Assembly (NCBI GenBank): GCA_021323655.1
Contig: JAJPKO010000045.1
Span: 1 to 64,000, forward strand
Origin: Acidobacteriaceae bacterium
GTDB lineage: Bacteria; Acidobacteriota; Terriglobia; Terriglobales; Acidobacteriaceae
Reading direction: 5' to 3'
DNA length: 64,000 nucleotides
The notes below the pieces were generated by a model that was given only the letters and a program-made list of their open reading frames with translations, did not search any database and had not been told where the DNA came from. This document shows positions 43,844-49,562 of this stretch, piece after piece. Made by a program: the position numbers and the translations under genes. Each line of letters starts with the position of its first letter. Positions within the stretch are counted from its first letter, which is position 1.

Positions 43844-44593
43844 TCATATCAGCCGTTGTTCAGCCGCCTGGACCGCTTCATAAATCTGGTCGAACGATTC
43901 CACCGCATACAGCACCTTCTGCATCTCCGAGACCTTTACCTCCTGGTCCAGCACCTGCTCCAGATTGAAGTCCCGGATATCAGGCCCGCCATGGATCACG
44001 TGCGTAGACTCGCCATGCGATGAAATCAACCCGCTCCCATAGAGTTTGATCTTCCCATTCTGCCGGATCACTCCAAACTCCACCGTGAACCAGAACAGGC
44101 GTCCCATACGCTCCAGTTTGTCTTTCTGGTTGATCAGGTCGAGGCAAACCCGCCCATAGTGCTGAAGAAAATCTGCAAATACCGGATGCGCGTGCATCGG
44201 CACATGCCCAAAAACATCATGGAAAATGTCCGGCTCCGGCGTGTACTCCATCGCCTCGCGCGAGCGGATATAGGTTGTCGTCGGAAACTGCCGGGCCGCC
44301 AGCATCTCAAAAAAAGCATCCGGGGGGAGAAATCCGCTTACCGGAGTTGCATTCCATCCCGTACGCGGCCCCAGCCGCTTATTCACTTCCGCCAGTTCCG
44401 GAATCGTGTCATCCCGCAGCCCAATCTGATGAAACCCATCCAGATACTCAGCGCAGGCGTGCTCCTCAAGCTGAGGCATGCGCCGCCGCACCAGCTCTGA
44501 CCATATAGAGTGCTGCTCCGGGGTATAGGCCTTCCAATCCTGTTGGATAAGAAACGGTTCAGCAATGTGCAGACGCGCAGTCGTAGATGCCAT
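43844..44593 (-). CDS. phhA: phenylalanine 4-monooxygenase
   Basis: Hydroxylates phenylalanine to tyrosine using a pterin cofactor and iron. The iron ligands are H125 and H130 in PDIFHDVFGHVP and E172 in FTVEFGV. TYIRSREAMEYTPEPD precedes them. It has 249 residues, typical of the monomeric bacterial enzyme without a regulatory ACT domain. No pterin dehydratase (phhB) lies nearby. The next gene on this strand upstream is the urocanase-like gene, 366 nt away. Confidence 0.95.
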   Translation of the reverse strand: MASTTARLHIAEPFLIQQDWKAYTPEQHSIWSELVRRRMPQLEEHACAEYLDGFHQIGLRDDTIPELAEVNKRLGPRTGWNATPVSGFLPPDAFFEMLAARQFPTTTYIRSREAMEYTPEPDIFHDVFGHVPMHAHPVFADFLQHYGRVCLDLINQKDKLERMGRLFWFTVEFGVIRQNGKIKLYGSGLISSHGESTHVIHGGPDIRDFNLEQVLDQEVKVSEMQKVLYAVESFDQIYEAVQAAEQRLI

Positions 44594-44959: not shown

Positions 44960-45664
44960 TCAGAAAGTCCCGGCATTCGCTCTGAGCAAAACGGGAACGG
45001 AAATCCTCTCGCGAATCAGGCCATGAAATCGCTCAAGCTCTTCCGCGCTCATGCGAACATAGCGCTCGTGGTGCACTAGGTTTCGCAGGTAGCGGGGAGC
45101 GCGCTGCAACCACAGAGCACGGTTATCGCCCGCAGCATGTCCCATGACCTCGATGGCGAGGGCATCCAGCCGAGGCAGCCATACGGCCGGCTCCTGCTCC
45201 ACGCTCCAGGTCACTTCGCTCCTCCCATCAGGCCGAATGCCCTCGAGAATCGCTGTCCCACGTTGGACGAATGCTTCGGAGCCTGGCTTGCCCGGAAGAA
45301 CAACATCAGGCTGCACTCCACGTTCCAGCATTTCTGTCACAACTGAATTCGGCCCGCTGACAAGCACTACAGACACCGCCTGCTTCCTGCGAATCTCGTT
45401 CTTCAGGATGCGCAGCGCTTCATCAAGATCATTCACCATGAAATCGCAAATTCCCTGACGCAACGCAAACTTCACCCAATGGGGGTCCTCATCTACCCCC
45501 AGCGAAGCGGCGCCTGCTATGTTGGCCGCGGCCGCGGTGACAAGTCCTCCCATGTCCGCTTCACCATAGAAGACCAGCAGCCCTCCCATCGCGGGCGCGA
45601 TGGCGAACAGAGCACAGAAGCGCTCATAAACCTGCGCAGTGGTGAATATGCCCTCAGAATTCAT
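44960..45664 (-). CDS. short protein resembling the NAD-binding part of urocanase
   Basis: A 234-residue protein. About residues 44-122 read like the Rossmann-type central part of urocanate hydratase: AAAANIAGAASLGVDEDP, then CDFMVNDLDEALRILKNEIR, then AVSVVLVSGPNSVV and MLERGVQPDVV, all in family order. Full urocanases have ~550 residues, and the catalytic TDQTSAHDP segment that should follow is replaced by LPGKPGSEA. It therefore probably cannot be a urocanase and may bind NAD or another ligand. It lies 36 nt downstream of the pseudopilin genes. Confidence 0.6.
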   Translation of the reverse strand: MNSEGIFTTAQVYERFCALFAIAPAMGGLLVFYGEADMGGLVTAAAANIAGAASLGVDEDPHWVKFALRQGICDFMVNDLDEALRILKNEIRRKQAVSVVLVSGPNSVVTEMLERGVQPDVVLPGKPGSEAFVQRGTAILEGIRPDGRSEVTWSVEQEPAVWLPRLDALAIEVMGHAAGDNRALWLQRAPRYLRNLVHHERYVRMSAEELERFHGLIRERISVPVLLRANAGTF

Positions 45665-45700: not shown

Positions 45701-46102
45701 TCACCAGCTCGAGTAAGGCTGGCCATTGCTTCCTACTGCATCGGACCCGCTATGAACATCCGAGATGCCCGGCTCTGTCTGGTCCACCGACTCCAGCGAA
45801 TCATCCATCTTGGTCACCCAGGTGCCATTGCTGTGTGTCATCGGGTCTACAGGAATTTCCTTCAGATACCCGCCCTGTACCAGATCATCCAGCGACTGCG
45901 GCCCTTTTTCCTTGTCCATCGTGTAGGAGTCAATCGCCTGCCGCATAATATGCAGGTCTTCCTTAAGCACCGCCTCTTTGGCCGATTTGAGCGACTGCAG
46001 ATAGATTGGAATGGCAATAGACGCAAGCACGCCAATGATCAGCATCACGATCATCAGTTCGATCAGCGTAATGCCCTGTTCTCTTTGCCGTGTCCTTACC
46101 AT
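45701..46102 (-). CDS. type II secretion pseudopilin GspG-like
   Basis: A pseudopilin of 133 residues. The prepilin peptidase site is REQG-ITLIELMIVMLIIGV at the N-terminus, with Ile instead of the common Phe after the cleaved Gly and the usual Glu at position 5. The C-terminal part LVQGGYLKEIPVDPMT is characteristic of GspG, the major pseudopilin. It overlaps the gene before it by 7 nt. It belongs with the second pseudopilin and the secretin, suggesting a shortened type II or type IV pilus-like machine. Confidence 0.88.
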   Translation of the reverse strand: MVRTRQREQGITLIELMIVMLIIGVLASIAIPIYLQSLKSAKEAVLKEDLHIMRQAIDSYTMDKEKGPQSLDDLVQGGYLKEIPVDPMTHSNGTWVTKMDDSLESVDQTEPGISDVHSGSDAVGSNGQPYSSW

Positions 46103-46566
46103 GTGTTGTATTTTGTCCCGTCCAGCGCTGTTCCATCCGATTTCGAGTACACATCAAAAACATTCTGCCCGCCCCAGGAATCGCTGTCCGGGTCGTCCTG
46201 CATCGAGCGCAGCCCCCACTCGTCCTTGCCCGTCATAGGGTCAACAGGAATGCGCCGCAGAAAGCGCACCTTCTTGCCCTGCACATCCACTCCGTTGACC
46301 AGCGTTTGCAGGTCCGGCGGATAGCCAAAGCTGTCCACCTTCGTCTGGAAGGCGTTGCGGTCCGCGGCGTCTTTATAGCGGTCAATGGCGTCCCGCATCT
46401 GCCACAGGTCATAACGCAGTTCACGCTCCTTCTGGCGCTTCACTTCCAGCTTGGTCAGCGGAATGGCCGCCGACGCCAATACTGCCAGAATTGCAACCGT
46501 CACAATCAGCTCTACGAGCGTGAGCCCGGCTTCGCTGCTGCTTCGCGACTTTTGCCTGTACATCAT
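46096..46566 (-). CDS. second GspG-like pseudopilin
   Basis: A 156-residue pseudopilin-like protein. The cleavage region reads SEAG-LTLVELIVTVAILAVLA. RRIPVDPMTGKDEWGLRSMQDD is a variant of the GspG calcium-loop region (PVDPMTG), and VFDVYSKSDGTALDGT ends it. It lies between the secretin and the first pseudopilin, so the operon has two paralogous GspG-like proteins. Compared with the first it lacks MV at the start and has a longer linker. Confidence 0.88.
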   Translation of the reverse strand: MMYRQKSRSSSEAGLTLVELIVTVAILAVLASAAIPLTKLEVKRQKERELRYDLWQMRDAIDRYKDAADRNAFQTKVDSFGYPPDLQTLVNGVDVQGKKVRFLRRIPVDPMTGKDEWGLRSMQDDPDSDSWGGQNVFDVYSKSDGTALDGTKYNTW

Positions 46567-46602: not shown

Positions 46603-48915
46603 TTACTGAACATGCACAATTGCCTGGGAACCGGTCGCCGGCATCGCCTGCTGCGCACTATTTCTGACGACTGGACGGGTGATGGCCACCGATGCATCAC
46701 CCGGTGCCTTTGCCTGGAAGGTAAGCACCACAACAGACCCGCTGCCGCTGACTCCATGCGTGCCCGGAGGCCGTGAGGCAGAAATCGCCACCCCGCCATT
46801 GCCGTCATCGCGATGGACCAGCGCAACCGCCTGTCCATCCTTGCCCAGGAAGTTGCCGCCATCCACATTGATGAGAGTGAGCTTCGAGCTGTCATACTGC
46901 ATCTGCATCGGCACGGAGAACACGTCATTTCCGCCACCAAGATTGACCGCTACCTGGAAAGTAGAGCCGACCTTCTGCGGAACCTGCGGCGCAGCCAGTT
47001 GCAGGCTGATGGGAGCCCCAGCGTTGGCCTGCTGCTGCATTTGTTGCAACGCATTCTGCGCAGCCGCGGAAGGAGTCTCGCCTGGCACCGTTCCCTGCTG
47101 GTCTGCAACAGGAGCAGGCGCTGGCGTATGCACAGCAGGAACGGGCGCCGGGATACGCCGCACCTCCACCGTGTTCTGCGTGCCGGAGTCTACAGCTTTC
47201 GTGTTCAACGGATTGATCTGTTCAGCGCGCACCACATGCGGAATTACAAGGAACACAATTTCGTCATCTTGCGTCGTCCGCGTCTCCGAGCCAAAGATGT
47301 ACCGCAGGATCGGCAGTTCCGCGAGTCCCGGCGTGCCGCTCAGCGAACGGCTCTTCTGCTGCATAAGGATGCCACCCAGAATGCTGGCCTCGCCTTCCCG
47401 CAACCGGATCGTCTGGTCTACGGACCGTTGCGTGATGATCGGCTCATCAATCCCGCCCAGGTTCACCGTACCGTTCGTGTTCGAGACCTCGATCTTCATC
47501 TTGATCGTCACATCGCGGTCATAGTGCACCGTAGGCTTCATATCTATATTGACGCCCACATCCAGGTACTGGAACTGGGTGTTGACCAGCGAGCTGACAA
47601 TTGCGGTGGCTGCGCCAGTCTGGTACGAGCCGGTCGCCACTGGATATTTTTGGCCAATCTTGAGCACCGCCTGTTGTCCGTCTGAGGCCCGCACGCGCGG
47701 GTTCTGCAACACTCGCGTATCAGAATCTGTCAGCAGCAGATTCGCCTGCGCCTGTCCGATTGTGACCGCAAAATTCGTTGCATTCAGGTGCGCCAGATCA
47801 TTCAGCGTAAGGTTGCCAGTGGTCGTGGGATTGCTCGGTGTTGTTGGGTTCGAAGAACTGGACGAGGAAGAACTGGAGCTTTGATTTGCATTCGACTGCT
47901 GGAAATTGATGGATGCCGTTTGCGGAAGCTGAATGCCCAGCTGTCGTGTCTTGTTGCGGCTCACTTCCAGCACCGCCACGTCAATCACCACTTCAGGTTT
48001 GGCTTTGTCCAGGTCGTTGATGATCTTCTGGGCCAGCAGCAGCTCATCCGGCGTGCCGCGCATAATAATGGCGTTCTGGCTCGGAACGGGATAAAGGCGT
48101 GCAGTCGTAAACACCTGACGGAGGGCCGTATTGATGTCATTCAGGTCCTGCTGCTGGGAGACATTGGTCAGATAAAAAGTCTGTACCGCCTGCTCATCCA
48201 GCTCCGTGCGCTTGCCGCGGTTGTTTTCCGCTACAAAAATGGTGTTGTCAGTAATAGGTCGCCAGAATGTCCCGGAAATCGTGCCAATAATCCGCAACGC
48301 GTCGTACAAGGACACATTCGTCAGGTCCACCTGGATGCGCTTCGAGGTATATTGCGGATCAAACAGCACATTGATTCCCGCCAGCTTACCTACCGTCTGG
48401 TAGATCACCCGGCTGTCTTCCACAGAATGGATCGTAATCGGTTCATTTGAAAGAGGCTTGAGTGTGGGCGGACCACCCAGTTCACTCAGCGCTGGAGTTG
48501 TATTCGGCGAGAGCGACGTCTCCTGGTTCGGCGGTGCATTCAGTTTCTCCCGCGTCGCCTGAAGTTCCTGCTGCGCCAGCTCATTGCTGGGGTCAATCTC
48601 AAGCGCGTGCAGAAATTCCGTGACCGCTCCTGTCATCTCTCCCTGGTCGCGCAGCTTCTCGCCCAGCTTTACATGCTCAGCAGCGGCAGAAAAGCGCGTC
48701 CGCTCGTAGGCCGTCTTGAAGCGCAGGTCACTGGGCTTTTGCTGGAACGCTTTGTAATAGTCTTCATAGGCCGTCTGAATATCGTCTTTGGCCTCTGCTT
48801 TCTGGCCCTGCTTGTACCAGTGGTTGGCAGATTGCGCATGCAATGGCCTGGATGGAGCAAAGAGGAAAAGAGAGCCAACGGAAACGATGGCCAGTTTGAG
48901 AGCGTTGTGATTCAT
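46603..48915 (-). CDS. secretin (GspD/PilQ-like) with C-terminal cohesin-like domain
   Basis: An outer-membrane secretin of 770 residues. After a signal peptide (LKLAIVSVGSLFLFAPSR) come TPR-like helices (about 28-120), then an STN/N0-type domain (TIHSVEDSRVIYQTVGKLAG, then INVLFDPQ), an N1-like domain, a Ser/Thr-rich insert (near residue 375) and the secretin core (IREGEASILGG-like LREGEASILGGIL, then FGSETRTTQDDEIVFLVIP). The last ~130 residues (VGSTFQVAVNLGGGNDVFSV) look like a cohesin-type domain. The start chosen gives the signal peptide; a 59-codon upstream extension is not supported. Confidence 0.9.
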   Translation of the reverse strand: MNHNALKLAIVSVGSLFLFAPSRPLHAQSANHWYKQGQKAEAKDDIQTAYEDYYKAFQQKPSDLRFKTAYERTRFSAAAEHVKLGEKLRDQGEMTGAVTEFLHALEIDPSNELAQQELQATREKLNAPPNQETSLSPNTTPALSELGGPPTLKPLSNEPITIHSVEDSRVIYQTVGKLAGINVLFDPQYTSKRIQVDLTNVSLYDALRIIGTISGTFWRPITDNTIFVAENNRGKRTELDEQAVQTFYLTNVSQQQDLNDINTALRQVFTTARLYPVPSQNAIIMRGTPDELLLAQKIINDLDKAKPEVVIDVAVLEVSRNKTRQLGIQLPQTASINFQQSNANQSSSSSSSSSSNPTTPSNPTTTGNLTLNDLAHLNATNFAVTIGQAQANLLLTDSDTRVLQNPRVRASDGQQAVLKIGQKYPVATGSYQTGAATAIVSSLVNTQFQYLDVGVNIDMKPTVHYDRDVTIKMKIEVSNTNGTVNLGGIDEPIITQRSVDQTIRLREGEASILGGILMQQKSRSLSGTPGLAELPILRYIFGSETRTTQDDEIVFLVIPHVVRAEQINPLNTKAVDSGTQNTVEVRRIPAPVPAVHTPAPAPVADQQGTVPGETPSAAAQNALQQMQQQANAGAPISLQLAAPQVPQKVGSTFQVAVNLGGGNDVFSVPMQMQYDSSKLTLINVDGGNFLGKDGQAVALVHRDDGNGGVAISASRPPGTHGVSGSGSVVVLTFQAKAPGDASVAITRPVVRNSAQQAMPATGSQAIVHVQ

Positions 48916-48964
48916 GCAACTCCAGGATAAAAATGTCCGGGGAAAAGGCGTACAGTCGTGGCCG

Positions 48965-49034
48965 ATTATATCAGGGCATGGCGTGCCACGTGCGCGCCCT
49001 GTACCCTGCGCAGCGAACCTTGTACCCTGTACAT
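48965..49034. repeat. CCCTGTACC-family spacer before smpB
   Basis: CGCCCTGTACCCTGCGCAGC followed by CTTGTACCCTGTAC runs right up to the smpB ATG. The words match those at the VWFA start (GCACCCTGAACCCTGTAAAA). There is no Shine-Dalgarno sequence between this element and the ATG, unlike most genes here. Confidence 0.55.
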
Positions 49035-49562
49035 ATGGCCCGTCAGTCCAGTCATCAAGTGGCCCCTGCCGCTCCTCAGAAATCAAAACCACGCGACCCG
49101 GTGGCGGCCGGAACGCGGGATGCTGCGCAGAACCGCGCTGCCGGACACAACTACTTCCTGCTCGACAAATTCGAGGCTGGCATCGCCCTTCGCGGGACCG
49201 AAGTTAAGTCCATCCGCGAAGGAAAAGCCAATCTCAAGGACGCCTACGGCCTTATTAAAGACGGCGAGGCATTCCTGTTGAACGCGCACATCGGCCCCTA
49301 TTCCCATACGGGATACACATCCCATGACGCGCTTCGTACACGGAAGCTGCTGCTCCACCAGGAAGAACTTCGCAAGCTACAAGGCAAGACGCAGCAGAAG
49401 GGTTTTACGCTCATTCCCACCCGCCTTTATTTCCGCAACGGACGGGTGAAGTGCGAACTGGCCCTTGCCAAAGGTAAACAGGACTGGGACAAACGCGAGA
49501 CCGAACGCCGTCGCGAAGCCGACCGTGAGGCCCGAGCAGCCATGGCCCGGTCCAGAAAATAG
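49035..49562 (+). CDS. smpB: SsrA-binding protein SmpB
   Basis: SmpB binds tmRNA and delivers it to stalled ribosomes in trans-translation. The core (AGHNYFLLDKFEAGIALRGT, VKSIREGKANLKDAY, and TLIPTRLYFRNGRVK) is clear, and the basic C-terminal tail KGKQDWDKRETERRREADRE is present. The ATG chosen gives 175 residues with a ~38-residue unstructured N-terminus, longer than usual. No ribosome binding site is visible; CCCTGTAC repeats precede the ATG. No tmRNA gene was seen in the window. Confidence 0.94.
   Translation: MARQSSHQVAPAAPQKSKPRDPVAAGTRDAAQNRAAGHNYFLLDKFEAGIALRGTEVKSIREGKANLKDAYGLIKDGEAFLLNAHIGPYSHTGYTSHDALRTRKLLLHQEELRKLQGKTQQKGFTLIPTRLYFRNGRVKCELALAKGKQDWDKRETERRREADREARAAMARSRK

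Follow-up and report, generated by a model that had tools for sequence, protein, structure and literature searches.

Why should a locus for a secretin and two pseudopilins in a member of the Acidobacteriaceae run directly into a gene whose product resembles only part of urocanase (HutU)? The earlier note on this DNA, made from the letters alone, saw in the product a solitary oddity. We find that the short form is real but not solitary: it belongs to a family-wide remnant, of single origin, of a hutU-hutI gene pair. We think it rather probable that the protein is a pseudoenzyme derived from the HutU of this locus and kept for a non-catalytic, probably protein-binding role.

Results

The short gene and its relation to urocanase

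The gene for the putative urocanase-derived pseudoenzyme lies at 44960..45664 on the minus strand of the window (the whole stretch of 64,000 nucleotides that was analysed). The product has 234 residues, as the earlier note had described, and its open reading frame is complete, running from an ATG to a stop; the plus strand of the same interval holds no open frame. The proposed relation to urocanase is borne out by Pfam, in which PF01175 (Urocanase) matches residues 26-122 (45299..45589, minus strand) with E=1.3e-11 and 45 bits against a cut-off of 23.2. This match covers positions 26-121 of the 209 in the model, the first half of the urocanase Rossmann-like domain, and a whole-genome search finds it in the same place. 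NCBIfam hutU-type models (1.8e-14 to 1.7e-8) and solved Pseudomonas putida urocanase chains (1.2e-7) agree, the NCBIfam scores being far under the whole-protein cut-offs (for TIGR01228, 33.6 bits under an equivalog cut-off of 375 bits). All 33 members of an alignment of the short-form family match PF01175. Urocanase_N has no match in the short protein, and the three-domain HutU architecture of ~550 aa is absent. The Rossmann part of the homology thus stands as originally described, but its supposed end at residue 122 does not: sequence comparison across the family and structure both indicate that residues ~156-234 (44963..45199, minus strand) track the beginning of urocanase's C-terminal domain, stopping before its glycine-rich NGGGVGIG region. 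The Urocanase_C model is detected in 4 of the 33 members, and similarity among the short frames extends well past the Rossmann part.

Besides the short gene, the genome that contains the window (4.59 Mb in 65 contigs) matches PF01175 at one place, in an intact full-length HutU on contig C60. Searches of this genome with Urocanase_N and Urocanase_C found that separate enzyme only, so no missing pieces of the short protein lie elsewhere in it. With the reading frame complete and no such pieces left over, a broken or frameshifted HutU is ruled out, and a split urocanase was rejected because there are no N- or C-terminal pieces besides the intact HutU. The C60 enzyme belongs to a genuine hutU-hutG-hutI group followed by a threonine-dehydratase-like gene (L044, 9184-13240; contig C60, 121000-140000). 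More generally, where genomes have a HutU as well as a short form, these HutUs fall into several unrelated groups, which suggests repeated replacement. Nine genomes with completeness of at least 96% (G063, which is one contig, and G159, G219, G338, G328, G333, G302, G296 and G350) have the short form as their sole PF01175 match, and searches of six of the nine, including G063, with Urocanase_N and Urocanase_C gave no match. The short form therefore persists without any urocanase, and a role in urocanate-based histidine degradation is very unlikely in those genomes.

Predicted structure

A structural comparison with HutU, as the earlier note had proposed, shows a urocanase fold. The AlphaFold model of the window protein, made with the 33-member alignment, has a pLDDT of 95.0 and a pTM of 0.91, and Foldseek with this model as query returned urocanases alone at E<=0.001. 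In structure comparison, 228-232 of the 234 residues align to urocanases with Z 17.8-19.6; VIA-align places 228 residues onto 1X87 (Z 19.6, rmsd 2.7), and the next fold reaches a Z of at most 9.0. As modelled, the deletions leave a continuous, compact domain. We rejected a methyltransferase-like function suggested by fold matches at Z 9.0 and below, as these are far under the urocanase values and involve the Rossmann part only.

Parts of urocanase lost, kept and gained

Short forms are missing the N-terminal domain, the TDQTSAHDP loop and most of the C-terminal domain of HutU, the absence of this catalytic and NAD loop having been recognised in the window protein from the outset. There, the ~100 urocanase residues from TDQTSAHDP through YGNN...GPFRW have shrunk to 33 (residues 123-155; 45200..45298, minus strand). 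At the place of the dinucleotide loop GGMGGMGG stands GEADMGG (residues 34-40; 45545..45565, minus strand), in which glycines are replaced and acidic residues gained; in the short forms generally the loop has become G-E-x-D-x-x-G-like. We considered 20 NAD-contact or catalytic positions, including the catalytic Cys C410, which we take to be those annotated in P. putida HutU; they were transferred by offset, and the letters were checked in 24 full-length enzymes. Across the 96 short forms described below, 19 of the 20 are deleted or not conserved, the sole mostly kept position being G178 (73/96). The active-site Cys is kept in none of the 96, and the QTSAH loop retains Q in three, T in two and H in none. 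The altered loop and the fate of these positions do not support the original description of an NAD-binding domain protein, and we infer that the short form has ceased to bind NAD+ and acts non-catalytically. The companion claim, that it cannot be a urocanase and probably has a non-urocanase function, is strengthened by the loss of the TDQTSAHDP loop, the catalytic Cys and the NAD positions.

The best-conserved segment across all short forms is DFMVNDLDEALRILKNEIR (residues 74-92; 45389..45445, minus strand), which contains helix 80-92 of the model. Within it E82, K88 and R92 are conserved at 100% and F75, V77, R85, L87 and N89 at 98-99%. In consensus form, DFxVxxLDEALRILKNExR and RGxxPD are kept with up to 100% identity. 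This helix segment marks the vertically inherited HutUs of the class and is not common to the other HutUs in short-form genomes. WLxxAPRYLGR, on the other hand, is a conserved motif that the short forms have acquired, the enzymes having WIxLAxKRIxFQ in its place; the window protein has WLQRAPRY (residues 185-192; 45089..45112, minus strand), and the wider consensus is RRWLRxAPRYLGR in short forms against RWIxLAxKRIxFQ in full-length enzymes. An interpretation of this arginine-rich motif as a nucleic-acid or c-di-GMP site was set aside, the family being acidic (median pI 5.8) and the window protein lacking the motif's last arginine.

Distribution and phylogeny

A search of genome contigs with the single protein found no relative because the peptides chosen were window-specific; searching with the 33-member alignment found 309. 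From a search of the bacterial family plus a profile search, 96 short forms were collected with their neighbourhoods and aligned (median 261 aa), L162 being excluded as a short-looking sequence that groups with full-length urocanases and is cut by a contig end. The proposed search for other short forms and their neighbours places most of the 96 at the same pilin locus. They vary in length and come from at least 19 genera, all Acidobacteriaceae, with named records in Acidobacterium, Acidipila, Silvibacterium, Terracidiphilus, Occallatibacter, Acidicapsa, Edaphobacter and Granulicella. Among 297 genomes sampled from the phylum, convincing short forms occur in the Acidobacteriaceae alone, the other matches having frames as long as a urocanase, except for a few that contig ends may have cut. 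Some Acidobacteriaceae genomes (for example G132, G080, G113 and G145) are missing the short gene, which is therefore dispensable there.

All 96 short forms fall into one clade (support 0.84) on a stem of 1.21 substitutions per site (237 aligned columns). This clade is nested inside the full-length enzymes, and its node with L042, L046, L174 and L179, four full-length enzymes that are all at the pilin locus, has a support of 1.0, although the short sequences and long stem make long-branch effects possible for the branching point within the full-length clade. HutUs found elsewhere in short-form genomes lie outside that clade, in several separate groups. This pattern suggests that the histidine pathway was lost and then regained from different sources, and horizontal transfer may lie behind the regained HutUs.

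The pilin locus

The short gene does sit directly after pseudopilin genes, as first reported: the stop codon of pseudopilin 1 (N_methyl motif, GspG-like; 45701..46102, minus strand) is 36 bases before its ATG. Further upstream are pseudopilin 2 (N_methyl motif by Pfam/NCBIfam; 46096..46566, minus strand), a GspD/PilQ-like secretin (46603..49092, minus strand; true start probably downstream of the listed GTG) and smpB (48933..49562, plus strand; true start probably downstream), the divergent gene that bounds the conserved locus. The secretin carries a fused C-terminal cohesin domain, and the locus is conserved through the class; this fusion next to two pseudopilins is worth a second look. A single phenylalanine 4-monooxygenase gene (43844-44593, minus strand; 326.6 bits with NF008877) lies 366 bases past the short gene and is not conserved as a neighbour in other genomes.

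Full-length enzymes at this locus occur in the order smpB'-secretin-pilin 2-pilin 1-hutU, in most cases followed by hutI, which is present after 22 of 24 full-length genes as against none of the 96 short forms. At L038, hutU-hutI is followed by convergent EngB-like, Lon and ClpX-like genes (names taken from Pfam domains), and an EngB-like gene is close downstream of the short form in 63 of the 96 loci. The shared slot, the missing hutI and this EngB-like neighbour indicate that the short protein is what remained of hutU after the hut genes decayed. Given the nested clade and the same locus, the short form is related to HutU by common descent.

Two further genes were seen at these loci. In 24 genomes, most of them from one genus group, a gene for a secreted protein of ~160 aa (LDGKTGxxxxxSNxLVRxDH...; L126 4918-5397, L133 5377-5907 and 22 similar) with no Pfam match lies between those for pilin 1 and the short form. 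One genus group has a gap of ~500 bases at this point; a third pilin was considered for it and rejected, the gene there encoding a signal-peptide protein without a Pfam match that is not a constant neighbour. Directly 3' of the short gene, again in one genus group, is a gene for a protein of ~100 aa (LRRLQIMVNMVMSVI...; L107 5588-5881, L134 5322-5630 and seven similar), which stays with the short gene even where the pilins are gone.

Selection

Among the 25 closest pairs, the short gene has a dN/dS of 0.16-0.37 (Nei-Gojobori, NG86). The genes beside it range from about 0 to 0.25, and its value is mostly at least twice theirs, which implies that it is under weaker constraint, though constrained. 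These ratios and 96 open frames indicate that the gene has been maintained by selection after the loss of catalysis, and together they rule out a local pseudogene.

Discussion

We propose that the short form arose once, in an ancestor within the Acidobacteriaceae, from a genuine urocanate hydratase encoded by a hutU-hutI pair directly after the secretin-pseudopilin genes. hutI was lost, and the N-terminal domain, the NAD/catalytic loop and the tail of the C-terminal domain disappeared from hutU, reducing the enzyme to less than half its original length. The result is a compact single chain of ~230-300 aa, in which the start of the former C-terminal domain closes off half a Rossmann domain, and this remnant has been maintained since then under purifying selection. 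It may bind another protein (or itself) through the near-invariant DFxVxxLDEALRILKNExR helix, the adjoining RGxxPD turn and the new WLxxAPRYLGR element. Protein binding is suggested by the conserved charged residues of that one helix. Full-length enzymes of the ancestor clade conserve this helix too, and some of its conservation could therefore be structural. Since the full-length ancestor already had the helix segment, the short form may have retained a second role that this HutU had from before.

The position of the gene invites another explanation, in which the protein is a dedicated component or regulator of the adjoining secretin-pseudopilin (type II secretion or type IV pilus-like) machine; the gene would share a transcript with those of the machine, and its product would act on the cytoplasmic side. 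In 82 of the 96 loci the short form is within 1 kb downstream of the pilins, in some overlapping the pilin stop by a few bases; the window has no match to a terminator or promoter between pseudopilin 1 and the short gene, and the conserved surface is non-catalytic. However, this position is a legacy of an ordinary hutU-hutI pair that occupied the slot before, and the linkage is not obligate. Eleven of the 96 short forms are apart from the pilins, with at least 5 kb of upstream sequence, ten having no pilin in that stretch and one a pilin 2.3 kb off. In about seven lineages (L086, L107, L117/L132/L134, L133, L152/L168, L155 and L157) the short form has split from the pilins while its frame stayed open, often with the downstream neighbours retained. 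Moreover, pilin loci without the short gene are common: those of other families have no urocanase gene, and some in the Acidobacteriaceae also lack it. A pilus or secretion role is thus weakly supported, and a dedicated machine component is unlikely. Because the pilin neighbourhood was inherited with hutU and has been broken in about seven lineages, we rank partner binding first and a pilus or secretion role second. That a dead, cofactor-free mini-protein was adopted as an adaptor or regulator of envelope secretion or pilus machinery, keeping the interaction surface of the full-length urocanase, likewise strikes us as doubtful.

A sensor or carrier that still binds a nucleotide or other metabolite, in a Rossmann pocket that has been rebuilt, would fit the confidently modelled Rossmann-like topology (pLDDT 95) and the partial conservation of the rebuilt loop (G174 61%, D177 66%, G180 76%; L038 numbering). 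It is nevertheless improbable, as the loop is not conserved family-wide, the acidic residues where phosphate would bind speak against NAD-type ligands, and the strongest conservation falls on helix 80-92 rather than on the loop. We consider it very unlikely that the gene is a functionless remnant in slow decay: it evolves faster than its neighbours, varies in length and is absent from some genomes, but 96 frames have stayed open since one ancient event with a dN/dS of 0.16-0.37, residues are conserved at 97-100%, and the new motif is absent from the enzyme. That the protein has stayed active as a urocanase, or forms part of a split one, has homology alone in its favour and is hardly credible: essentially all members have lost the catalytic Cys and QTSAH, the window's genome has no extra N- or C-terminal pieces beside the intact HutU, and there are at least eight well-covered genomes that have the short form and no other urocanase.

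Compared with HutU (TIGR01228; PF17391 + PF01175 + PF17392; PDB 1UWK, 1X87, 2FKN), the short form retains half the Rossmann domain, followed as in the enzyme by the start of the C-terminal domain, has the same fold, and descends directly from the locus-resident enzyme. It differs in its length (234 aa against ~555 aa), and the N-terminal domain, the glycines of the NAD loop, the QTSAH loop, the catalytic Cys and the C-terminal glycine region are all missing. The thiourocanate and S-methylthiourocanate hydratases (NF058530, NF058531; PDB 7NED, 8Q9V) share the fold, and the short form scores slightly higher with their models (44 and 53 bits) than with that of hutU (34 bits). These are, however, full-length NAD+ enzymes with cut-offs of 930 and 880 bits, far above the short-form scores, and the short form goes back to an ordinary hutU: L038, the enzyme at this locus, reaches 917 bits with TIGR01228 and is below the cut-off with NF058530 and NF058531. 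Pseudoenzymes are catalytically dead paralogues kept as binders or regulators, and the short form resembles them in having lost its catalytic residues while keeping its fold under purifying selection. In a library of open papers, without preprints and most subscription titles, we found no account of short urocanases, urocanase pseudoenzymes or this locus, which is weak evidence.

The finding carries a warning for annotation, since in about 100 species automatic methods may label this protein a urocanase or NAD-binding protein, wrongly implying histidine degradation. It is also a clear example of how a metabolic enzyme has become a conserved protein that is no longer an enzyme. Because related genera still carry full-length forms at the same position, the course of the losses (hutI, the N-terminal domain, the NAD/catalytic loop) is open to study. 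If it is true that the retained helix surface reflects a second role of HutU, the family would provide a testable example of moonlighting that preceded the loss of catalysis.
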